Assembly: GCA_014730235.1 (NCBI GenBank)
Contig: WJIO01000363.1
Span: 1-14,195 of the forward strand
Direction: 5' to 3'
Length of the DNA: 14,195 bases
DNA from: Candidatus Poribacteria bacterium
GTDB taxonomy: Bacteria; Poribacteria; DTPJ01; WJIO01
Positions within the stretch are counted from its first letter, which is position 1. Every line of letters starts with the position of its first letter. Shown piece by piece: positions 5,255-13,796 of the stretch. The notes under the pieces are model-generated. The model did no database searches and had not been told where the DNA came from. It saw only the letters and a list, made by a program, of their open reading frames with translations. Position numbers and translations under genes: made by a program.

Positions 5255-5314
5255 GTGCAAAAGTTGCTTTTTATATTTACACAAAAGTTTACAACTAAAT
5301 TGGAGACGTGCGTA

Positions 5315-5572
5315 ATGGAAGACACAAATAAAGGCAAGGGTTCAAAGAGCGAATATATTCGTGTCAACCTGACGCTCCCAGACGAACTGGATCGGGTATT
5401 ACAGGAAATGGGAAATGATGCCCGGGCATCTGGAGGATATAAAATTCCCAAGACCATGATTATGCGCGCTCTGGTTCGGCTTTTAATGCAGTTGGATGTA
5501 GATCCAAGCGGCGTCAAAACAGAAGATGAGCTTTTGGATCGTCTTAAAAAAGCCATTGAAAAAAACAATTGA
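5315..5572 (+). CDS. Small ribbon-helix-helix-like protein, first paralogue
   Basis: The 85-residue protein begins MEDTNKGKGSKSEYIRVNLT. I chose the ATG at 5315 rather than the earlier in-frame start at 5255 because TGGAG lies nine bases upstream and because 5255 falls at the very end of the predicted promoter. The layout fits a ribbon-helix-helix fold: a short strand (YIRVNLTLP), a helix (DELDRVLQEMGNDAR), a loop, then a second helix (KTMIMRALVRLLMQLDVD). A charged helical tail (KTEDELLDRLKKAIEKN) follows. The next gene encodes a clear paralogue sharing the second helix and tail. I see no toxin or enzyme partner. A DNA-binding role, perhaps with autoregulation through the palindrome at 5225-5236, is inferred from secondary-structure pattern only. 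I do not recognise a named family. Confidence 0.7.
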   Translation: MEDTNKGKGSKSEYIRVNLTLPDELDRVLQEMGNDARASGGYKIPKTMIMRALVRLLMQLDVDPSGVKTEDELLDRLKKAIEKNN

Positions 5573-5690: not shown

Positions 5691-5915
5691 TTGAGCATAC
5701 AATGTGATTTGTCCCTATTTCTTACAAAAGAAGAGCACTCTTTTATAAAAAATTTAACCTACAGATGCTCATGCGAAGGCAATTCTAAAATATCAGAGGA
5801 AACTGTATTTAGAGTTCTGGTGCGTTTATTGCAGGATCTGGAACTGGATTTATCTGATATTAAAACAGAGGAAGAATTGCTTTATTGTTTGAAAGAAAAT
5901 TTAAGGCTTGTTTAA
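5691..5915 (+). CDS. Small ribbon-helix-helix-like protein, second paralogue
   Basis: This 74-residue protein starts at a TTG preceded by a strong AGGAGGT six bases upstream (5678-5684), which decides the start. Its C-terminal half aligns with the first paralogue: EETVFRVLVRLLQDLELD against KTMIMRALVRLLMQLDVD, then DIKTEEELLYCLKENL against GVKTEDELLDRLKKAI. The N-terminal strand (IQCDLSLFLTKEEHSFI) is more diverged, and the helix after it contains TYRCSCEG with two cysteines absent from the first copy. The two genes may act as a pair or hetero-oligomer. The function is unknown. The gene ends seven bases before the bidirectional terminator. Confidence 0.7.
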   Translation: MSIQCDLSLFLTKEEHSFIKNLTYRCSCEGNSKISEETVFRVLVRLLQDLELDLSDIKTEEELLYCLKENLRLV

Positions 5916-5921
5916 TTTGAA

Positions 5922-5959
5922 AAATAAAGGGGTTCATTTTTTAATGAACCCCTTTATTT
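5922..5959. terminator. Bidirectional rho-independent terminator
   Basis: A perfect 17-bp stem (5922-5938 with 5943-5959) around a TTTT loop has the core AAAGGGGTTCATT / AATGAACCCCTTT. On the plus strand the stem ends in TTT followed by GATTTTTT. On the minus strand it runs into TTT tracts from the A-rich left flank. It sits between the convergent ends of the second small paralogue (5915) and the 12-gene operon (5983), so it should stop transcription from both sides. Confidence 0.9.
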
Positions 5960-5982
5960 GATTTTTTGGAGGGTAGTAAAAT

Positions 5983-6855
5983 TTATGGGAGTGTTCTGGC
6001 AACTTCATCGACTCTTTGCCAGATACTCTTTATTTGCTCTGATACAGAACTATCAGGTTGATACTCAACTACAGATTGGGCATTTAGCATTGCCTTTGTA
6101 ATAACCGTATCAAAAGATATTTTTCCTACGAATTCGGCATCAACTTCCTGGCAGTGAAGTTCAATCTGCCTTGTGTATGCTGGATTTAAGTCATGTTTAT
6201 TTACGCACACCAGGGCCTTTATGCCAAAGTGATTTGCCAACCCAACAACGCGTTTGAGGTCATGCAGACCCGACACAGTTGGTTCAGTAACAGCCAGAAC
6301 AAGACTTGCCCCTGTAATAGCTGATATTACAGGACAACCTATACCCGGAGGGCCGTCTACTATAACGTATTCGATGTTTTCCCGTTCAGCTATTTCTCTG
6401 GCATGTTTGCGTACCAGAGCTACAAGCTTGCCTGAGTTTTCCTCAGCAATTCCCAGCTTTGCATGAACCATATGTCCGTGTCTTGTTTTAGATATGTAGC
6501 ATCTTCCCTGCTTGCTGTGTATCATTTCAATGGCTTCTACAGGGCATACATGATAGCACAATGCGCATCCTTCGCAATCAATAGGATCTACCACAAAATT
6601 CTCGCTTATGGCATCAAAGCGACATTCATCCAGGCATCTATCACATTCTATACATTTTGACTTATCAATTTTTGCTGCCTGACCACCGAGGAAAACTTCT
6701 TCTTTTAGTATTTCAGGTTTCAATATCAGGTGCAGATCGGCTGCATCAACATCACAATCAGCCATGACTTTGCTTTCGGCAAGGGCTGCGAAGCTTGCTG
6801 TTAATATAGTCTTACCCGTTCCACCTTTACCGCTGATAACCGTTATGGATTTCAT
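5983..6855 (-). CDS. MinD-type P-loop ATPase with inserted 2x[4Fe-4S] ferredoxin domain (second of pair)
   Basis: The 290-residue protein has the deviant Walker A motif GKGGTGKT at residues 9-16, the MADCDVDAADLH segment that follows it in this family, and VIVDGPPGIGCPVI as the Walker B/switch region. An eight-cysteine bacterial ferredoxin domain is inserted after the first 60 residues: C68, C71, C74, C78 and C94, C97, C100, C104. This is the COG1149 architecture. HGHMVHAKLG follows, a segment usual in these proteins. It is the last gene of the operon, two bases after the stop of its paralogue. The Desulfovibrio orange-protein complex includes a comparable pair. The likely role (inference) is ATP- and redox-dependent handling of a metal cluster or partner protein, probably as a heterodimer with the neighbour. 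Confidence 0.93.
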   Translation of the reverse strand: MKSITVISGKGGTGKTILTASFAALAESKVMADCDVDAADLHLILKPEILKEEVFLGGQAAKIDKSKCIECDRCLDECRFDAISENFVVDPIDCEGCALCYHVCPVEAIEMIHSKQGRCYISKTRHGHMVHAKLGIAEENSGKLVALVRKHAREIAERENIEYVIVDGPPGIGCPVISAITGASLVLAVTEPTVSGLHDLKRVVGLANHFGIKALVCVNKHDLNPAYTRQIELHCQEVDAEFVGKISFDTVITKAMLNAQSVVEYQPDSSVSEQIKSIWQRVDEVARTLP

Positions 6856-6857
6856 CC

Positions 6858-7688
6858 TTAAACCATCCTTATGATATTATTGTAAAGATCAGCGAATTTT
6901 TCTTTCCATTCTGGTTTTGCCTCTACAAATGGTATACCTTCTGAATATGCCTCAGCCAGTTCCCTGTCCATAGGTATTTTCATGAGAATAGGTATATCTT
7001 CTTTTTCGCAGTATTCATCAACTTTATCATCGCCTACATCAGAGCGATTTAGCACCACAGCGAAAGGAATTTCCAGAATACGCAGCATCTCTACAGCCAG
7101 AACCAAATCATTAAGACCAAAAGGCGTTGGTTCTGTAACCAGAACGCAGAAATCACTGTCTTTAACAGCTTCAATAACCGGACATGAAGTTCCCGGAGGG
7201 GCATCAATTATGGTTACCATATCTTTTTCCGCTTCATTCTTGACGGCTTTGATCAACGGTGGGGACATAGCTTCGGATATCCTCATCAAGCCGTGAATAA
7301 AGTGAACATCTCCGGCCTGACCGATCTCCATAACGCCAATTTCCCTTTCTACTTCCCATATAGCATCAACAGGACACAGAATACTGCAAGCACCGCATCC
7401 GTGACATAACTCCTGAAACACAAGCACATTTTTCCTGATAACAGCCAATGCACTGAACTGGCATACTTCTGAGCATTTGCCGCAGTATGTGCATTTCTTA
7501 TCATCAACTTTGGGTACTGGCAGACTTACGGAACGGGATCTGATAAGTCTGGGCTTTATGAATATATGGGAATTAGGCTCCTCAACATCACAGTCCAAAA
7601 GCTGACATTTCCCAATGGATAAGGCTAGATTTGTAGCTAAAGTAGTCTTACCCGTTCCACCTTTACCACTGGCTATGGATATAATCAT
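6858..7688 (-). CDS. MinD-type P-loop ATPase with inserted 2x[4Fe-4S] ferredoxin domain (first of pair)
   Basis: I place the start at the ATG at 7688. A TTG one codon earlier (7691) is also open, but the AGGAG at 7696-7700 is better spaced from the ATG (seven bases). The 276-residue product has Walker A GKGGTGKT at residues 8-15, LLDCDVEEPNSH after it, and IIDAPPGTSCPVI as switch region. The ferredoxin insert has C66, C69, C72, C76 and C95, C98, C101, C105, a complete set for two 4Fe-4S clusters. It resembles its downstream neighbour along the whole length but is clearly diverged, as expected for an old duplication giving a two-subunit ATPase. Both lie directly behind the NifX-like genes, their usual companions in anaerobes. 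Confidence 0.93.
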   Translation of the reverse strand: MIISIASGKGGTGKTTLATNLALSIGKCQLLDCDVEEPNSHIFIKPRLIRSRSVSLPVPKVDDKKCTYCGKCSEVCQFSALAVIRKNVLVFQELCHGCGACSILCPVDAIWEVEREIGVMEIGQAGDVHFIHGLMRISEAMSPPLIKAVKNEAEKDMVTIIDAPPGTSCPVIEAVKDSDFCVLVTEPTPFGLNDLVLAVEMLRILEIPFAVVLNRSDVGDDKVDEYCEKEDIPILMKIPMDRELAEAYSEGIPFVEAKPEWKEKFADLYNNIIRMV

Positions 7689-7703
7689 CAATAAACTCCT
7701 AAA

Positions 7704-8036
7704 CTAATGATCGCAAATATTATCGCCCAATTCAAGCTCTTCACTTACATACTTTTTGACCAGCTCTTCAGGTTCTAGCACCGGCGCGCCAACCAGAACA
7801 TCAATGCCATTTTCCCTGAATAAATTCTGGGCTCTCATACCCATTCCACTGGCAATAATCAAATCCGCGCCCTGTTCGTGCAGCCATTTAGGCAAAACAC
7901 CCGGGGCATGTGGTGGGGGAACCAGAGATTGAGAACTTTTTATCTCTCCGTCTTCTACATCCACAAGGACAAACTCCTGGCAGTGTCCAAAGTGCATACT
8001 TAACTTACCTTCAACAGTGGGAACTGCTATTTTCAT
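7704..8036 (-). CDS. NifX/NifB-C-like small protein (orange-protein type)
   Basis: The 110-residue protein starts MKIAVPTVEGKLSMHFGHCQ and matches the dinitrogenase iron-molybdenum cofactor-binding fold (COG1433), an RNase H-like alpha/beta domain. HFGHC at residues 15-19 and the PPPHAPG loop (His43) are candidate cluster or metal ligands. GADLIIASGMGMRAQNLF is the conserved second half. Cys108 and His110 at the tail (ICDH) are extra potential ligands. A CAGGAG ribosome binding site lies about 11 bases before the ATG. In the orange-protein system a protein of this family carries a Mo-Cu sulfide cluster; whether this one does is not visible from sequence. It differs from the two DPRFGR-type copies in the operon, so it is probably not redundant with them. 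Confidence 0.88.
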   Translation of the reverse strand: MKIAVPTVEGKLSMHFGHCQEFVLVDVEDGEIKSSQSLVPPPHAPGVLPKWLHEQGADLIIASGMGMRAQNLFRENGIDVLVGAPVLEPEELVKKYVSEELELGDNICDH

Positions 8037-8133
8037 TTATTTATTACTCCTGTATCTATGATTTTTGCTCTTCCGAATTGAGTGTGGAAAATCTTCAAAT
8101 TATTTCCACAATTAATCCTGAAGAACCTGATTT

Positions 8134-8499
8134 TTATATACCGCTATGGGCATCTACATTTGCGCTGTCTGTTGGTTTGATTTTACCTGCTTTAAAAGCT
8201 TCTACAGCTTCTTTAACAGTTCCTTCAACACCAACATATACTTTAACACCGGCAGCTTCTAGAGTTCTGAAAGCTTTGGGACCGCAGTTAAAAGTCAATA
8301 CTGCATCGGCGCCGCTGTCAGATACGATTTGTGCAGCCTGAATTCCTGCTCCTGCCGGGGCCTGTAAATTTTGCTTGTTATCAACAATTTCAAAATCCCA
8401 TGTATCCGGATCAACTACCAGAAAACACTGGGCCCGACCGAAACGCGGGTCTATTTTTGCATCCAGATTACTATCCTGGGCTGATACTGCTATCTTCAT
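8134..8499 (-). CDS. NifX/NifB-C-like small protein (DPRFGR type)
   Basis: This 121-residue protein of the COG1433 family has DPRFGRAQCF at residues 18-26, an AGAGIQAAQIVSDSGADAVL helix-strand segment, NCGPKAF around Cys72 and GVKVYVGVEGTVKEAVEAF near the C-terminus. Cys25 and Cys72 are the only cysteines and could hold a cluster or metal. Its AGGAGG ribosome binding site overlaps the TAG stop of the upstream zinc-ribbon gene (TAGGAGG), indicating translational coupling. The nearest relative in the window is the N-terminal domain of the protein at 11040-11696. A gap of 97 bases separates it from the next gene, larger than elsewhere in the operon. That gap holds only a weak 8-bp inverted repeat (8083-8090 with 8103-8110) and no obvious terminator. 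Confidence 0.9.
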   Translation of the reverse strand: MKIAVSAQDSNLDAKIDPRFGRAQCFLVVDPDTWDFEIVDNKQNLQAPAGAGIQAAQIVSDSGADAVLTFNCGPKAFRTLEAAGVKVYVGVEGTVKEAVEAFKAGKIKPTDSANVDAHSGI

Positions 8500-8509
8500 A
8501 AAATTCCTC

Positions 8510-8749
8510 CTAATTTCTTATACAGCGACCATCCTCACAAGGTGGTTTACTGCATCTTTCGTCCTGACCACAGCAGGTTACTCCACTTTTTAATTTACCT
8601 TTAGTAGAGACGTTAGCGGCTGATATTAAACGTTTCATATCTCCACTCCCGCAATCAGGACAGCTTATACTTTCCATATCACTGGTTTTTAAATGAAGAA
8701 CTTCTCGGACTTCTCCGCAATTATTACATTTATATTCATATGTAGGCAT
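8510..8749 (-). CDS. FmdB-type zinc ribbon protein with Cys-rich tail
   Basis: The 79-residue protein begins MPTYEYKCNNCGEVREVLH, the signature start of the FmdB/CxxC_CxxC_SSSS family. The zinc ribbon uses C8, C11, C30 and C33. The tail holds a second cysteine cluster (C59, C60, C66, C71, C76) in CCGQDERCSKPPCEDGRC, which could bind another metal. The family was named from formamidase and methylamidase regulators, but most members have no tested function. Here its position among cluster-handling proteins suggests a metallochaperone or regulatory role (inference). AGGAG overlapping the TAG stop of the hydrolase gene gives tight translational coupling, and its own stop overlaps the next gene's ribosome binding site. 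Confidence 0.9.
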   Translation of the reverse strand: MPTYEYKCNNCGEVREVLHLKTSDMESISCPDCGSGDMKRLISAANVSTKGKLKSGVTCCGQDERCSKPPCEDGRCIRN

Positions 8750-8758
8750 AATTTTCTC

Positions 8759-9583
8759 CTAATACCATTCTAAGTTGGTACCAACATGATTGAAAAATAC
8801 TTTACCCCCAAAATGTTCATATAATCTTATGGTTGCAAGTTTACCTGTGCAGTGACATAACCCCATTTTATCTATGTTGAATTTATCCAATTCCTGTATT
8901 GTTTTATCTATTCTTCCCTTACTTGCATCAATAAGGTGTATGCCACCGATAACCATTGATATATAAGTATTATGCATCAATTGATCGACTTTTTTAAGGG
9001 TATTTATTATTCCTGAGTGACCACAACCAAATACTACAAGAATTCCATTTTTGCCCTGAATAATCAAGGAAAGGTCGTCTTTAAGTTCGTCTTTGATAAG
9101 GTTATTTTCTTTGATAGTGCATAATCTGTCAGGTATTACTTCAAAATCCGTTACCCTCGGTATCTCTCCTGTGGTTTGTATACCTGGAGCAATCTGAACT
9201 GGTTCTTTGCTCAAATGTAATTTAGCACCCATTAATTCCAGGGATTCTATAGTATAAGGAATTCCAATTGATCTTCGCTGGCATTTTGCCACAGAATATT
9301 TTTCATCAAAAGCCCCTGGATGTGCATACACATTAGCTCCACCACAGGCTTTGAGGGCATCCTTAAGTCCTCCGGTATGATCCGCATGACCATGGCTGAG
9401 GACTATCTTATTAACTTTTGAAAGGTCAACGCCCATTTCCTCAGCATTGTGAATAAGGGCACATCCTTGACCAGTATCAAAGAGTATAGTTTCGTTATCC
9501 GTTTCTATTAGAAATGAAAGACCATGTTCAGCCAGTAAACCTGCTTTACCTACTTCATTTTCAACCAGTGTGGTTATTTGCAT
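8759..9583 (-). CDS. Metallo-beta-lactamase-fold hydrolase (COG1237 type)
   Basis: The 274-residue protein carries the MBL metal motif SHGHADHTGG (His64, His66, Asp68, His69) and FGCGHSGIINTL with His189 as a further ligand. N-terminal MQITTLVENE and FDTGQG, and C-terminal GLCHCTG, are typical of COG1237 enzymes. Some archaeal relatives make a ribofuranosylaminobenzene 5'-phosphate adduct in methanopterin synthesis. That pathway is unlikely here, so the substrate is open. Genes of this family commonly sit beside NifX-like and MinD-ferredoxin genes in anaerobes. The start lies inside the end of the CDF gene (23-base overlap), preceded by AAGGGG. There is no signal peptide, so it acts in the cytoplasm. 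Confidence 0.92.
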   Translation of the reverse strand: MQITTLVENEVGKAGLLAEHGLSFLIETDNETILFDTGQGCALIHNAEEMGVDLSKVNKIVLSHGHADHTGGLKDALKACGGANVYAHPGAFDEKYSVAKCQRRSIGIPYTIESLELMGAKLHLSKEPVQIAPGIQTTGEIPRVTDFEVIPDRLCTIKENNLIKDELKDDLSLIIQGKNGILVVFGCGHSGIINTLKKVDQLMHNTYISMVIGGIHLIDASKGRIDKTIQELDKFNIDKMGLCHCTGKLATIRLYEHFGGKVFFNHVGTNLEWY

Positions 9584-10775
9584 TTATTTCCCCTTTTAAC
9601 TTATATCCTTGCTCTGTAAGTGCCGTTTCCATATTCTCTGAATCCGTTATATTTACCTCTACTTCAGCATTGGAAAAAGCATAAACCGGGCCTTTGCCAT
9701 CAAATTCTTCTTTTATCAGAATTACATCCACATCCCGATTTATTAAAAATTCAGCTGCCTTTATACCCTTTCCTTTTTCTACTGATATAAAAGGATTAGG
9801 TATAATTTCACTTTCCATAAAGCTTTTATCCTTTGTTTTAAATTTTACGATAGCAAAAAATGGAGCTTCCCCAAAATGTCTGGAGACTTTTCCTTTTTCA
9901 TTTGCCAGAGGAATGGCAAATGATATTATCTCCTTTTTTACCGGTTCGTAATGAATTAAAACGTTGTCTACATGAGGTATTTCATCTTTGATGGACTTCT
10001 CGATTTTCTTACTTATAGAATGGGCCTTTTCAAGGTTAGTTACATTAAAAACAACCTCAGCTTCTATAAATTTATAACTTCCAGAGTTTCTTCCTGTCAA
10101 AGAATTTATTTCTTTAACAAATGGTTCTGATAATATAATAGTTTTTACCTTATCCAGAGAATCAAAATCAAGAGAGGCATCCAGTAAAACCCTCATGGCA
10201 TCTATAAGAATATCTATACCTGCATGGGCGATGAAGATAATTACCACAAATACAGCGATTCTGTCAAGGTTATATCCAAATAAAGCACCGATAAGACCGA
10301 CTAAAACGGCAACGGAGCTAAACATATCTGTTCGCACATGCTTACCATCAGCTACCACACTGGGAGAACCTATCTCCTCACCTTTTCTGATGGCATATAT
10401 ACTGAAACCAAGAGTTATAGCAATTACAGCAATCTCAGCAATTATTGCCAGGGGAATATAACGTAATTTCTCACCATTACTTCCAAATATAGCTTCTTTA
10501 GCAATTTCGTAACCTGCAAATAATATGGCAAAAGCCAATATAAGAGATACGAAGTTTTCTACCTTATAAAGTCCATAAGGAAAACGTTTGGACTTACGCT
10601 TGGATATTTTCAAACCAGCGAAGACCGTCAGCGACGCCAACACATCAAAAGACGAGTGTATGGCATCGGCTGCCAGACCTGCGCTGCCGGAAATCTTCGC
10701 GAAAATGTATTTAAGCGACAATAATGTTATATTGACTGCTATTGATATAGCTGCTACTTTTTCGCTTTGTTCCAA
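9561..10775 (-). CDS. Cation diffusion facilitator transporter fused to a C-terminal NifX-like domain
   Basis: A TTG start one base after the preceding stop gives 404 residues. Residues 1-200 are a cation diffusion facilitator membrane domain with several hydrophobic segments and both metal motifs intact: HxxxD in DAIHSSFD (His40, Asp44) and HxxxD in DGKHVRTD (His146, Asp150). Residues 205-282 form the usual cytoplasmic regulatory domain. Residues 284-395 are an extra domain resembling the NifX-like proteins of the same operon (ISFAIPLANEKGKVSRHFGE, HFG at 300-302, then VDVILIKEEFDGKGPVYAF). The fusion puts a metal-efflux pump and a cluster-binding domain on one chain, suggesting that transport is sensed by or coupled to cluster status (inference). 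The metal is not certain; Zn or Fe are possible. The weak ribosome binding site implies coupling to the upstream gene. Confidence 0.92.
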   Translation of the reverse strand: MEQSEKVAAISIAVNITLLSLKYIFAKISGSAGLAADAIHSSFDVLASLTVFAGLKISKRKSKRFPYGLYKVENFVSLILAFAILFAGYEIAKEAIFGSNGEKLRYIPLAIIAEIAVIAITLGFSIYAIRKGEEIGSPSVVADGKHVRTDMFSSVAVLVGLIGALFGYNLDRIAVFVVIIFIAHAGIDILIDAMRVLLDASLDFDSLDKVKTIILSEPFVKEINSLTGRNSGSYKFIEAEVVFNVTNLEKAHSISKKIEKSIKDEIPHVDNVLIHYEPVKKEIISFAIPLANEKGKVSRHFGEAPFFAIVKFKTKDKSFMESEIIPNPFISVEKGKGIKAAEFLINRDVDVILIKEEFDGKGPVYAFSNAEVEVNITDSENMETALTEQGYKLKGEINANNHTG

Positions 10776-10776
10776 G

Positions 10777-11025
10777 TTATTTTCTCGCCATTGCCTTTCC
10801 GCATTTAGGACATTTTACTCGGTAGCATGGTACACCTGTCTGGTGCTGTATCACAGCTCCGCAGGATGGACAAGCACACTGACCACCAGGGCCTGCCGCT
10901 TTCCTTCCGCCCATTCTACCTGAGCGGTTTGCACCGGAACCGCCGCCTTTACCAGGATTTTGCCTGCGTCCCAGGCCTGTTCCTGGTCCTTGTCCTCTTG
11001 GACCTGTACCGTCTCCTCTTGGCAT
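10777..11025 (-). CDS. DUF5320-type N-terminal motif joined to a Cys-rich zinc ribbon
   Basis: The 82-residue protein begins MPRGDGTGPRGQGPGTGLGR, the same MPxxDGTGPxGxGPxTG head as the protein at 12120-12410. A Gly/Arg-rich, basic linker follows. The C-terminus has CACPSCG (C50, C52, C55), Cys67 and CPKCG (C72, C75), a zinc-ribbon or rubredoxin-like knuckle. An AGGAGGTG ribosome binding site (11033-11040) touches the stop of the NifX gene upstream. Its own stop is one base before the CDF start. The function is unknown; the positively charged linker and ribbon could bind a protein partner or nucleic acid. Confidence 0.85.
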   Translation of the reverse strand: MPRGDGTGPRGQGPGTGLGRRQNPGKGGGSGANRSGRMGGRKAAGPGGQCACPSCGAVIQHQTGVPCYRVKCPKCGKAMARK

Positions 11026-11039
11026 TATTTTACACCTCC

Positions 11040-11696
11040 TTATTTGTTCTTCTCAAGATCATCAATTCTTTTAAGTATCTGATCCAGTTGACCTTTCATA
11101 TTCTGTGCTATCTGCTTCAGCATATTCATTTCCTGGTCGGGTGACATTTGATTTTGCTTTGGGGGTTGGGGAGGAAAACCACCGGGCTGAGGCATTGGTT
11201 GCTGCATACCGGTATTTGGCATATTCCAACGACCCATACCGCGCCCCATGCCCATTCCTCTACCGGCCATGCCTCGACCCATTCCCATACCTCGACCCAT
11301 ACCAGTACCCATTCCCGGATTCTGGTATCCGCCGCCAACACCAAAGTGAGATGGAACAGTTGCATCGTTTACAAACTGAAGCTGTCCACTGTTAAATCTC
11401 TGTATGGCTTCCCGAACTGTACCAGCGACTCCTGTTATGATTTTTAATCCTGCCGCCGACAAAGTCTGGAATGCGTTAGGACCTACATTACCTGTCAATA
11501 TGACTTCTACCTCTTTATCAGCCATAAGCTGACCTGACTGAATCCCTGCCCCACCGGCTGCGCTTATGTTTGGATTTTCTATTGCGTCAAATTCCAGGGT
11601 TTCCGAGTCAACTATAATAAAATACTGACATCGACCAAATCTTGGGTCAACCTGAGAATCCAAATCTGTACCCATAGATGATACTGCTATTTTCAT
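11040..11696 (-). CDS. NifX-like domain with Met/Gly/Arg-rich linker and C-terminal coiled coil
   Basis: The 218-residue protein has three parts. Residues 1-115 are a NifX-like domain with DPRFGRC at 17-23, AGGAGIQSGQ and VGPNAFQTLSAAG, close to the protein at 8134-8499. Residues 120-165 are a repetitive GMGRGMGMGRGM stretch. Residues 184-218 (MSPDQEMNMLKQIAQNMKGQ and on to the end) form a short coiled coil with a heptad pattern. That coil aligns with the tail of the neighbouring protein at 11754-12104. The Met-rich repeat could bind soft metals such as copper (inference), and the coil probably oligomerises with its neighbour. Normal COG1433 proteins are about 110-120 residues, so this is an extended form. 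GGGAG lies nine bases before the ATG. Confidence 0.9.
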   Translation of the reverse strand: MKIAVSSMGTDLDSQVDPRFGRCQYFIIVDSETLEFDAIENPNISAAGGAGIQSGQLMADKEVEVILTGNVGPNAFQTLSAAGLKIITGVAGTVREAIQRFNSGQLQFVNDATVPSHFGVGGGYQNPGMGTGMGRGMGMGRGMAGRGMGMGRGMGRWNMPNTGMQQPMPQPGGFPPQPPKQNQMSPDQEMNMLKQIAQNMKGQLDQILKRIDDLEKNK

Positions 11697-11725
11697 TGGT
11701 TATCTACTCCCTTTATATGATTTTC

Positions 11726-11747
11726 CGGGCACGCCTACGCGCGCCCG
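11726..11747. repeat. GC-rich inverted repeat between operon genes
   Basis: Arms CGGGCACGC (11726-11734) and GCGCGCCCG (11739-11747) pair with one mismatch, which becomes a G-U pair in the minus-strand transcript. The loop on that strand is GUAG. It is strikingly GC-rich compared with its AT-rich flanks. No U-tract follows, so it is more likely an mRNA processing or stability element, or a dispersed palindrome, than a terminator. Confidence 0.6.
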
Positions 11748-11753
11748 TATTAA

Positions 11754-12104
11754 TTATTCATCCTGATCTTCTTCAAGTTTGTCAATTCGATTCTGAATTT
11801 CTTCTATCTGCTGATTAAGTATTTCAGCTTCTTCTTTCAGCATTTCCAGTTCCTGCTCCTTTGTATAACCAGGAGCAAAAGCAGGATCACCCCATCCATA
11901 GGAAGGAGGATAAACTGGCATTGGTGGTGTCGGTGCATATCCCTGCCAGTAAGCCTGCATCTGAGGGGTTGGCCACGCTCCAGTCATCATATAAGTCGCA
12001 CATGGACCCAATCCACTGGAACTTCGACCTACCCAGCCGGGACTGTAACCAAATCTCATCCAACCGGGAAGACCTGTAGCATAATACATCCATCTGTTAC
12101 GCAT
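11754..12104 (-). CDS. DUF5320-type coiled-coil tail protein, aromatic/Pro-rich
   Basis: I chose the ATG at 12104 because GAGGAG lies eight bases upstream; a GTG at 12113 is in frame but abuts the ribosome binding site. The 116-residue product is rich in Trp, Tyr, Gly and Pro in its first 75 residues. It then has YTKEQELEMLKEEAEILNQQ and an acidic end, a 35-residue amphipathic coil. This matches the usual C-terminus of DUF5320 proteins, yet the N-terminal head motif is missing and is found instead on the gene just upstream. There is no signal peptide or enzyme motif. A scaffold or oligomerisation role is likely (inference). Confidence 0.8.
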   Translation of the reverse strand: MRNRWMYYATGLPGWMRFGYSPGWVGRSSSGLGPCATYMMTGAWPTPQMQAYWQGYAPTPPMPVYPPSYGWGDPAFAPGYTKEQELEMLKEEAEILNQQIEEIQNRIDKLEEDQDE

Positions 12105-12119
12105 ATTATACACTCCTCT

Positions 12120-12410
12120 CTACCATCCATAGGGATAGGATGCGTATGGCGTTGTATATGGATTAGGTCTGGGTGCTGGCATAGGATAAGAATAATTCCA
12201 CCTTGAACCGTAAAATCTTCCGCCAAAACCTCGTCCTACGCCGCGACCCATTCCTCTTCCAAAACCGCGACCCATACCGCGTCCGAATCCTCGACCATAT
12301 CCATAATAGGGTGATGTTCCATAAGCTGCGCTATATGGATTACAAAAACCTCTTCTGCCACCTGTCATTGGGCCCATACCTCCAGGGCCTGTTCCGTCAA
12401 ATCCTGGCAT
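12120..12410 (-). CDS. DUF5320-type Gly/Arg-rich head protein
   Basis: The 96-residue protein starts MPGFDGTGPGGMGPMTGGRR, the classic head of DUF5320 proteins. It continues with GFGRGMGRGFGRGMGRGVGR, a Gly/Arg repeat, and ends in a Tyr/Pro-rich segment. The coiled-coil tail expected for the family is absent; the stop comes 15 bases before the ATG of the tail-like protein downstream. There is a single cysteine (GFCNPY). AGGAGGT seven bases before the ATG supports the start. Such proteins are repeatedly found beside NifX-like and MinD-ferredoxin genes in anaerobes, but their function is not known. Confidence 0.85.
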   Translation of the reverse strand: MPGFDGTGPGGMGPMTGGRRGFCNPYSAAYGTSPYYGYGRGFGRGMGRGFGRGMGRGVGRGFGGRFYGSRWNYSYPMPAPRPNPYTTPYASYPYGW

Positions 12411-12453
12411 TTTTCATACCTCCTGTAAAATAATTGATTATTAATTATAATTT

Positions 12454-13284
12454 TTATTCACTCACAACTTTTCTAACAACTTCCATAAATGCTTTTGTCG
12501 CGACTGATTCCGGGAAAGTCTCAACAAAGGGCTTTCCTGAGTCACCGCTTTTTACTATTTCGGGATCAATGGGTATGCGCCCCAAGAAGGGAACTCCCAT
12601 TTCTGCAGCGGCTTCCTTACCGCCGCCAGTTTTAAATAAGTCTATTTTCTCACCACATTTCGGACAAATTAACCCACTCATATTTTCCAGTATACCCACT
12701 ACGGGAACATCCAATTTTCTGGCAAAATTTATGGCTTTTCGGGAATCAAGCAGGGCCACATCCTGAGGTGTGGTTACCACAATAGCACCACTAATATTCT
12801 TTATTAGCTGGGCAACACTCAGAGGAGCATCACCAGTGCCGGGAGGAAGGTCAACCACAAGATAATCTAGCTTACCCCAGCGAACCTGTCCAAGAAACTG
12901 CTTTATCGCACCGGCTTTTAAAGGGCCTCGCCATATAACCGGAGAATATCTATCCGGTAAAAAGAAAGCCATAGATATTATCCCCAGGTTTGGCCTCAGG
13001 CTGACCGGTTCAAAGCGTTTATCCTCACCATAACCGGTTATATTTCCATTTTCCAGACCAAGCATCTTGGGAATATTTGGTCCGTCTATGTCAGCGTCCA
13101 GCAATCCGATCTTTTTGCTTTCATCCTGAGATAAAGCAAACGCGATATTGGATGCAACTGTGCTTTTGCAAACGCCACCCTTTCCACTTATTATGATTAA
13201 TGTATGTTTAATATTACCAAGGTTTTCTTCTAGCTGTTGTTCCAGAAGTTCCTTTTCTTCGGTTCTCTGTCTCACTTTACCCAT
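12454..13284 (-). CDS. mrp: Mrp/NBP35-family iron-sulfur carrier ATPase with altered Walker A
   Basis: I use the ATG at 13284 (MGKVRQRTEEKELLEQQLEE), not an open ATG at 13362, because GGAGG lies just upstream and the longer start would precede the sigma-54 promoter. The 276-residue protein has Walker A SGKGGVCKSTVASN (residues 33-46), LLDADIDGPNIPKMLG, YLVVDLPPGTGDAPLSVAQ, TTPQDVALLDSRKAI and the cluster-binding CPKC (207-210) in ENMSGLICPKCG. These define Mrp/NBP35/ApbC proteins, which bind a bridging 4Fe-4S cluster as dimers and pass it to target proteins. The residue before the P-loop lysine is Cys39 instead of the near-universal glycine. It is the first gene of the operon, as expected if it supplies clusters to the NifX-like and MinD-ferredoxin proteins. 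Confidence 0.93.
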   Translation of the reverse strand: MGKVRQRTEEKELLEQQLEENLGNIKHTLIIISGKGGVCKSTVASNIAFALSQDESKKIGLLDADIDGPNIPKMLGLENGNITGYGEDKRFEPVSLRPNLGIISMAFFLPDRYSPVIWRGPLKAGAIKQFLGQVRWGKLDYLVVDLPPGTGDAPLSVAQLIKNISGAIVVTTPQDVALLDSRKAINFARKLDVPVVGILENMSGLICPKCGEKIDLFKTGGGKEAAAEMGVPFLGRIPIDPEIVKSGDSGKPFVETFPESVATKAFMEVVRKVVSE

Positions 13285-13335
13285 TAAACCTCCAAATAAA
13301 ATGAATATTATTGAAATAAGCACATCTATATATTT

Positions 13336-13351
13336 TGCATACTTCATGCCA
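13336..13351 (-). promoter_or_regulatory. Sigma-54 (RpoN) promoter for the 12-gene operon
   Basis: On the minus strand the sequence reads TGGCATGAAGTATGCA. It has GG and GC dinucleotides exactly ten bases apart and differs from the TGGCACG-N4-TTGCA consensus at two positions. The predicted transcript would start near 13325, about 40 bases before the mrp ATG at 13284. The match is to both required dinucleotides with correct spacing, and it is the only such site I found in the intergenic regions. Confidence 0.75.
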
Positions 13352-13459
13352 GGATGGATCATAATGCTACATTTGCCGGAAAAACCCAGTCATATCAAGT
13401 TATTGGGATTTAAAATAATTTGTATTTGGTAATTGTTAAAAATAAATATAATTTAGTTA

Positions 13460-13616
13460 TCATTCCTGCGAAAGCAGAAATCCATTTTTTATGCGGATCT
13501 ACTGGATTCCTGCTTCAAGCTTTTTGAAAAAGCTTGAGCAAAAAGGAATAAGAGTTTCGCAGGAATGACAGCATAGAGAAATTCCTTATCTTTAATACAC
13601 TGAGCTCGGAAGAGCC
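13460..13616. repeat. Dispersed repeat, long copy with nested inverted repeats
   Basis: Outer arms TCATTCCTGCGAAA (13460-13473) and TTTCGCAGGAATGA (13555-13568) are exact reverse complements 81 bases apart. Inside lie GCAGAAATCC (13474-13483) against GGATTCCTGC (13504-13513), with one mismatch. A perfect 11-bp palindrome with a single central base, TCAAGCTTTTT-G-AAAAAGCTTGA, follows at 13515-13537. The whole can fold as a branched structure. The 48 bases after the right arm match the tail of the short copy at 5037-5083. It resembles a small non-autonomous palindromic element, of which the short copy may be a deletion form. Confidence 0.8.
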
Positions 13617-13685: not shown

Positions 13686-13733
13686 TAACAACACCCGATC
13701 TGTTTCAAAATTGAAACAGATCGGGTGTTGTTA
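13686..13733. repeat. Long perfect palindrome with operator-like core
   Basis: Arms 13686-13708 and 13711-13733 are exact reverse complements around AA, a 23-bp stem. The central 18 bases, TGTTTCAAAATTGAAACA (13701-13718), recur exactly at 13779-13796. It lies between divergent promoters and has no clear U-tract, so a terminator role for either gene is unlikely, though it could insulate rpmH from upstream transcription. Confidence 0.8.
13701..13718. promoter_or_regulatory. 18-bp palindromic site, copy 1 (putative enhancer or operator)
   Basis: TGTTTCA-AAAT-TGAAACA is a dyad with 7-bp half sites. It is about 350 bases upstream of the sigma-54 promoter's -24 element, within the range at which enhancer-binding proteins can act. 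Inferred to bind a dimeric regulator. Confidence 0.55.
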
Positions 13734-13778: not shown

Positions 13779-13796
13779 TGTTTCAAAATTGAAACA
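13779..13796. promoter_or_regulatory. 18-bp palindromic site, copy 2 (putative enhancer or operator)
   Basis: This is an exact copy of the dyad at 13701-13718, here without the longer flanking arms. Just before it, GAAACA-CA-TGTTTC (13771-13784) adds another half site, so three half sites lie in a row. It is about 25 bases upstream of the rpmH -35 box, so its occupancy might also affect rpmH. Confidence 0.55.

Follow-up and report, generated by a model that had tools for sequence, protein, structure and literature searches.

An extended ORP-type operon with an IssA-like NifX protein in a Candidatus Poribacteria bacterium: a candidate locus for handling metal-sulfide clusters

Results

Twelve co-directional genes make up an ORP-type operon

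The DNA analyzed here, referred to as the window, is one entire contig of 14,195 nt (WJIO01000363.1; G000:C307 in our numbering) from the assembly (5.53 Mb in 451 contigs) of an uncultured anaerobe, a Candidatus Poribacteria bacterium. Its minus strand carries, from position 13284 to 5983, an operon of the orange protein (ORP) type with 12 co-directional genes, here named g1 to g12. Open reading frame (ORF) calling combined with Pfam and NCBIfam profile scans recovered exactly the tightly packed set that an earlier reading of the bare sequence (the original prediction) had listed, and the domain scans returned the Mrp ATPase, four NifX-like domains and two MinD-ferredoxin ATPases named there. 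Intergenic gaps range from -23 to +97 nt, the largest separating g9 from g10, and ribosome-binding sites are visible ahead of nearly all 12 genes. The four NifX-type domains (PF02579; E values of 3.7e-24, 3.5e-12, 2.5e-25 and 2.5e-18) are the only ones in the whole assembly. Judging from the sequence, translation of g1 is more likely to start at the ATG at 13284 than at 13362, which places the promoter described below upstream of the coding sequence, and g11 probably starts at the ATG at 7688. The strong terminator predicted for the end of the operon is present as an intrinsic terminator with a 17-bp stem (5922-5959), shared with a convergent plus-strand gene (5691-5915).

Genes g1, g9, g10, g11 and g12 correspond to the ORP system

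Gene g1 (12454-13284) encodes a 276-residue Mrp/NBP35-type P-loop ATPase (PF10609, E 2.6e-94) that keeps the CPKC motif. It matches positions 2-250 of NF041136, the MrpORP model, with 346.7 bits, and the NifX-domain protein encoded by g10 (7704-8036) matches positions 265-365 with 132.7 bits, each of the two separate genes scoring under the full-length cut-off. This match to the two halves of the model indicates that MrpORP, which is fused in Desulfovibrio, is split here, and that g10 represents its C-terminal domain. The motifs MHFGHC, PPPHAPG and CDH are present in g10; HFGHC, PPPHxPG and CDH have been described for the Di-Nase domain of MrpORP (PMC6345978). A separate g10-type gene is likewise found in G001 (a genome of the same order), in G030 (another family of the phylum) and in Chloroflexota. 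The P-loop of g1 (window 13140-13190) reads GKGGVCKS, with Cys at the position before Lys that is occupied by Gly in 13/13 compared homologues.

The NifX-domain protein encoded by g9 (8134-8499) is of the Orp8 type. Its best match in the PDB is 2WFB, the Desulfovibrio gigas ORP (E 1.6e-24), and the two cluster with support 96/97 in a tree of 39 NifX domains that includes few reference sequences. MinD-ferredoxin ATPases of the Orp3/Orp4 type are encoded by g11 (6858-7688; PF01656/PF10609 plus two Fer4 domains) and g12 (5983-6855; assigned by domain scan and by its pairing in relatives), and each contains two [4Fe-4S] ferredoxin motifs. The pair is present in most related loci, where the best match of each member is its own counterpart. 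MrpORP passes iron-sulfur (Fe-S) clusters to Orp3/Orp4 proteins of this MinD-ferredoxin type in vitro (PMC6345978). The ORP-type relationship that had been proposed for the operon is supported by the position of g9 next to D. gigas ORP, by g10 as the C-terminal domain of MrpORP, by the paired MinD-ferredoxin ATPases and by the probable sigma-54 control discussed below.

Gene g4 has an IssA-like design and shares a coil with DUF5320 proteins

The product of g4 (11040-11696) consists of an acidic NifX domain (PF02579, 3.7e-24; isoelectric point, pI, 4.5), a 67-residue cationic (GMGR)n tail (pI 12.0) and a DUF5320 coil (PF17253, 3.6e-11). The tail contains 21 Gly, 12 Met and 6 Arg/Lys residues, one each of Trp, Tyr and Phe, and no acidic residue. 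The best PDB match of g4 is MTH1175 (1eo1), an IssA-type protein (E 1.2e-22). IssA of Pyrococcus furiosus, in which a NifX domain is likewise followed by a Gly-rich cationic tail, is a store of thioferrate and can rebuild a [4Fe-4S] cluster (PMC5524996). The GMGR repeat is also found in homologues from G001, G030, G084, G248, G296 and G175; the tail is short or absent in some Chloroflexota homologues, and that of the homologue in G016 has seven aromatic residues.

Two further DUF5320 proteins are encoded immediately upstream: g2 (12120-12410; PF17253, E 9.6e-12) specifies a Gly/Arg/Tyr-rich protein with a pI of 10.3, and g3 (11754-12104; PF17253, E 8.9e-6) one that ends in a C-terminal coil. 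The g3 and g4 proteins terminate in coils of similar sequence, as do many of their homologues and stand-alone DUF5320 proteins. Inside the homologous operon of G016 (L063:9324-9836) we also observed a two-cluster ferredoxin that is extended by a fused Gly/Arg tail and DUF5320-type coil.

Gene g6 encodes a CDF transporter fused to a NifX domain

The domains of the g6 product (9561-10775) are those of a cation diffusion facilitator (CDF) transporter (PF01545), ZT_dimer (PF16916) and a C-terminal NifX domain (PF02579). CDF-NifX fusions form one clade in the tree of 39 NifX domains (96/92), and their metal-site motifs vary across it (H/DxxxD and HxxxD or ExxxH). Carriers are 4/251 sampled Chloroflexota genomes, G030 and one Magnetococcales genome. 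Three of the four Chloroflexota carriers fall among the 15/251 genomes that encode a g5-like zinc ribbon, not all of the latter being strong matches (hypergeometric P 7e-4). A scan of genome contigs with the CDF-NifX protein gave three loci, one of which is a CDF without NifX. One Mrp that adjoins a CDF-NifX gene carries an FeS_assembly_P domain. In G175, ZnuA follows the fusion, and in the locus from Magnetococcales the two are some 5 kb apart, with NikR, CbiM and CbiQ in between; by locus, L047 and L145 have CDF-NifX near ZnuA-type zinc uptake genes, L047 also having NikR, CbiM and CbiQ. An AlphaFold model of CDF-NifX from three sequences (pLDDT 69, pTM 0.46) has six long helices and a dimerization-like domain, and the NifX part is poorly modeled. 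A Bacteroidales CDF in L048 was considered and set aside as unrelated to this operon type.

Accessory genes and conservation of the gene set

Gene g5 (10777-11025) encodes a small Gly/Arg-rich zinc ribbon (CxCPxCG...C...CPxCG) with Cys and His residues that are invariant in an alignment of 14 sequences. The product of g7 (8759-9583) is a metallo-beta-lactamase (MBL)-fold hydrolase (PF00753, 2e-15) related to PDB entries 2P4Z (E 5.8e-36) and 3H3E (Tm1679), and that of g8 (8510-8749) is a zinc ribbon of the FmdB family (TIGR02605, 3.7e-16; PF09723).

Loci for comparison were picked by matches to g5, DUF5320 or NifX, so that they tell which genes accompany one another in carriers and not how often the set occurs. 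Largely the same genes, in shuffled order, are present in other genomes of the phylum (G001, G016, G029 and G030), in G084 (Chloroflexota) and in one Bacteroidales genome, as well as in the majority of twelve additional Chloroflexota loci selected through g5; in most loci a g5-type gene adjoins the core genes. In addition, three of the Chloroflexota loci contain NifU/IscU scaffold genes (PF01592), and a ZIP transporter is encoded in the Bacteroidales locus and in two of those from Chloroflexota. The original prediction had named co-occurrence by mere chance in this genome as a finding that would refute it; the joint presence of the genes in further families of the phylum, and also in Chloroflexota and Bacteroidales, does not refute it. 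The prediction had also regarded the MBL-fold, FmdB, DUF5320 and CDF-NifX genes as peculiar to this operon. That view is not supported: the first three recur, together with the zinc ribbon, in ORP-type loci of the phylum and of Chloroflexota, and the CDF-NifX fusions, although rarer, form a clade that spans several phyla.

Some features of the compared loci are recorded for completeness. The G030 operon encodes a small BMC-domain protein and a TrmO-type protein (L066:1729-2040 and 2186-2608), and in L063 and L068 (G016 and G029) the operon is followed by a protein that by eye resembles the C-terminal type of methylenetetrahydrofolate reductase. Locus L069 of G031 turned out to be unrelated to this operon type.

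A putative sigma-54 promoter with upstream palindromes

A sigma-54-type promoter, TGGCATgaagtATGCA, is located at 13336-13351 on the minus strand. The site, TGGCATGAAGTATGCA when read from 13351 to 13336, lies 67 nt ahead of the Mrp ATG. By itself the motif is weak, window-wide counts of the pattern being near chance and the probability in a shuffled 300-nt stretch being about 0.0085. Comparable sites are present in G030 (TGGCATGTATATTGCT) and G016 (TGGTATGGATTATGCA), which belong to two other families of the same phylum; they precede the first gene of the operon by 42 and 70 nt, respectively. The sigma-54 control envisaged earlier is supported by the sequence of the site, by its recurrence at the head of these two operons and by the presence of rpoN in the genome.

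The 18-bp palindrome TGTTTCAATTTTGAAACA, a candidate activator-binding site, occurs in two exact copies (13779-13796 and 13701-13718), 350-445 nt upstream of the sigma-54 site, and the genome has no other copy. Ahead of the operon in G016 we found TGTTTCA-N4-TGAAACA, which has a different center and is the sole match to the relaxed pattern in that genome, and near matches to the palindrome lie upstream of the operon in G030. Because this comparison followed sight of the palindrome, we attach no formal probability to its recurrence. The second copy is embedded in a perfect 23-bp inverted repeat forming a 48-nt hairpin (13686-13733; -40.7 kcal/mol in a 70-nt stretch, z -10.9). Between palindromes and promoter, at 13460-13568, is an imperfect inverted repeat with ends TCATTCCTGCGAAA/TTTCGCAGGAATGA that resembles dispersed elements of the repetitive extragenic palindromic (REP) kind.

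In G030 a gene for a PAS/sigma-54-activator/Fis protein is situated directly upstream of NifX-DUF5320-DUF5320. Its product has the GAFTDA motif, as does DVU2106, the sigma-54 activator of Desulfovibrio vulgaris, for which the motif has been reported (PMC4641369). A search of the host genome gave 43 activator matches, the best of which, on contig C157, is 52% identical including the PAS domain and has GSFSGA instead of GAFTDA. The order-mate G001 has a Fur-family gene at the head of its operon instead, and some Chloroflexota loci are headed by a DUF134 gene (one assigned by Pfam, the rest by eye). Taken as a whole, these sequence features indicate that the operon is probably under the control of sigma-54 and an enhancer-binding protein.

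Genomic surroundings

Two small plus-strand proteins (5255-5572 and 5691-5915) are encoded convergently to the operon; they are 35% identical to each other (E 2e-11) and neither has a Pfam match. Farther away, the minus strand from 4555 to 971 contains a complete pyruvate:ferredoxin oxidoreductase gene (1194 aa), separate from the operon. Scans of the window for Rfam families and tRNAs gave no matches. We judge it unlikely, though not disproved, that the contig is a contaminant: its G+C content (0.411) and tetranucleotide profile are like those of other long contigs, and G001 has much the same genes. The description of the host as a Gram-positive-type anaerobe is not supported: other contigs of the assembly encode markers of a diderm cell (an RND pump, a CusB-like adaptor, an outer-membrane efflux protein and SurA), and the organism is by this gene content not Gram-positive.

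Discussion

Metal-cluster assembly and trafficking, the role originally suggested, remains the likeliest one in view of the homology to ORP and MrpORP; the ATP-driven machine with an oligomeric scaffold, as the original prediction had it, is a hypothesis. We consider it reasonably probable that this is an extended ORP-type operon, probably controlled by sigma-54 and an enhancer-binding protein, and that its products serve to store metal-sulfide clusters, to build them and to pass them on, the clusters being most likely of the Fe-S kind. This explanation is based on the ORP/MrpORP homology, the in vitro transfer by MrpORP, the precedent of IssA, the g4 tail and the shared coil, and also on NifU/IscU and ZIP genes in relatives, Fur in G001, the FeS_assembly_P domain on one Mrp, the promoter and palindromes, and the G030 activator. 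According to the model that we propose, Fe and sulfide would be bound on the NifX domain of g4, and its cationic (GMGR)n tail would hold the anionic product, as proposed for P. furiosus IssA. Through their DUF5320 coils g3 and g4 could assemble into an oligomeric body, which the g11/g12 pair might load or unload in an ATP- and electron-dependent manner. Mrp and the detached NifX domain of g10 would carry clusters to client proteins, and the cluster held by g9 would be a metal sulfide of the ORP kind. Surplus divalent metal could be removed by the CDF-NifX pump, its NifX domain serving as a cytosolic sensor or acceptor, and the FmdB, zinc ribbon and MBL proteins would be accessory.

Several observations weigh against this interpretation. 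The g4 tail, with its Gly-Met-Gly-Arg repeats, is Met-rich, and that of IssA is aromatic-rich. The Mrp ATPase may be altered by the P-loop Cys, unless this reflects a single-base error. There is no activator gene in the window, which ends upstream of the operon, and the full-length activator homologue that comes closest in this genome sits on a different contig. In two genomes CDF-NifX is found near zinc or nickel uptake genes and not near an ORP-type core. Finally, the cluster of D. gigas ORP is a Mo-Cu and not an Fe sulfide, and a role in positioning during cell division has been suggested for ORP (PMC6345978, PMC4672049).

Three other explanations were weighed. In a heterometal-sulfide system the NifX proteins and Met-rich tails would bind a sulfide of Cu(I)/Mo or of another soft metal, for copper-molybdenum antagonism or metal detoxification, and CDF-NifX would be the efflux arm. 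We regard this as unlikely. Although g9 clusters with D. gigas ORP, a member of a family that binds an S2MoS2CuS2MoS2 cluster (PMC6345978), and Met-rich GMGR tails would suit soft metals, the partners are mostly Fe-S proteins (two ferredoxin-type ATPases, the Mrp carrier, NifU/IscU in relatives) and no gene for handling Mo or Cu was recognized in the operons examined. The CDF-NifX and ZIP transporters close by, and the ZnuA/NikR/CbiMQ genes near CDF-NifX in other genomes, could also be taken to point to such a system; however, the metals for which CDF and ZIP transporters are known are Zn, Fe, Mn and Ni rather than Cu or Mo. Quite improbable, in our opinion, is a MinD/ParA-like complex that positions a septum or cell-pole structure, as first proposed for D. 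vulgaris ORP, with ferredoxin domains that merely confer redox sensitivity. It would suit the membership of g11 and g12 in the MinD family and the polar location of MrpORP (PMC6345978, PMC4672049), but the division role is a hypothesis in those papers, and four NifX domains, an Mrp with CPKC, CDF-NifX, and NifU/IscU and Fur in relatives would be left unexplained. That the operon is a loose set of anaerobic metal and redox genes on one promoter without a joint mechanism would agree with the shuffled gene order, the variable accessory genes and the occurrence of CDF-NifX and MBL away from the core too, but is very improbable given the same families together in distant phyla, the overlap of CDF-NifX and g5 carriers in Chloroflexota and the coil module common to several proteins.

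The reading as an Fe-S assembly and trafficking operon can be taken further, to a regulated Fe-S depot that is complete in itself and differs from both ferritin and ISC/SUF. In such a depot, which we put forward as a possible but doubtful extension, IssA-like NifX proteins with (GMGR)n tails would condense metal sulfide, the shared coil would recruit the DUF5320 scaffold, ferredoxin and other products, the MinD-ferredoxin proteins and Mrp would load and unload it, and CDF-NifX would vent metal. The operon bears on the question of how strict anaerobes keep and supply Fe-S clusters. In the literature consulted, work on ORP proteins concerned Desulfovibrio and work on IssA concerned Pyrococcus; the two designs are joined here in one transcription unit, along with further conserved partners: the DUF5320 coil module, the Gly-rich zinc ribbon, FmdB, MBL and CDF-NifX, and NifU/IscU and ZIP in relatives. 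The operon moreover provides a promoter/palindrome pair that can be tested, and it places DUF5320, which is named in only two papers of the literature searched, in a functional context.

The operon is an enlarged variant of the ORP system, with an IssA-like element that makes the Fe-S depot testable, rather than something categorically new. Like the D. vulgaris ORP operons (orp1/orp2, DVU2103-2109), it has paired MinD-ferredoxin ATPases, an ORP-type NifX protein and Mrp with the MrpORP-specific NifX domain, as well as probable sigma-54 control and palindromic upstream sites. Whereas those genes form two divergent operons, the present ones form a single unidirectional unit of 12, to which an IssA-like NifX protein, DUF5320 proteins, CDF-NifX, MBL, FmdB and a zinc ribbon have been added and on whose contig no activator gene is visible. 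Compared with MrpORP (DVU2109/Dde3202), the two parts are encoded about 4.4 kb apart and Cys replaces a P-loop Gly. The g6 product resembles CDF proteins of the FieF/YiiP type in its Cation_efflux and ZT_dimer domains and six predicted long helices, and differs from them by the additional C-terminal NifX domain. Similarly, g4 shares with IssA (P. furiosus PF2025) the acidic N-terminal NifX domain (IPR003731/PF02579) followed by a cationic Gly/Pro-rich tail of about 70 residues without acidic residues, but in g4 a C-terminal coil follows the tail and the gene is embedded in an ATPase operon.

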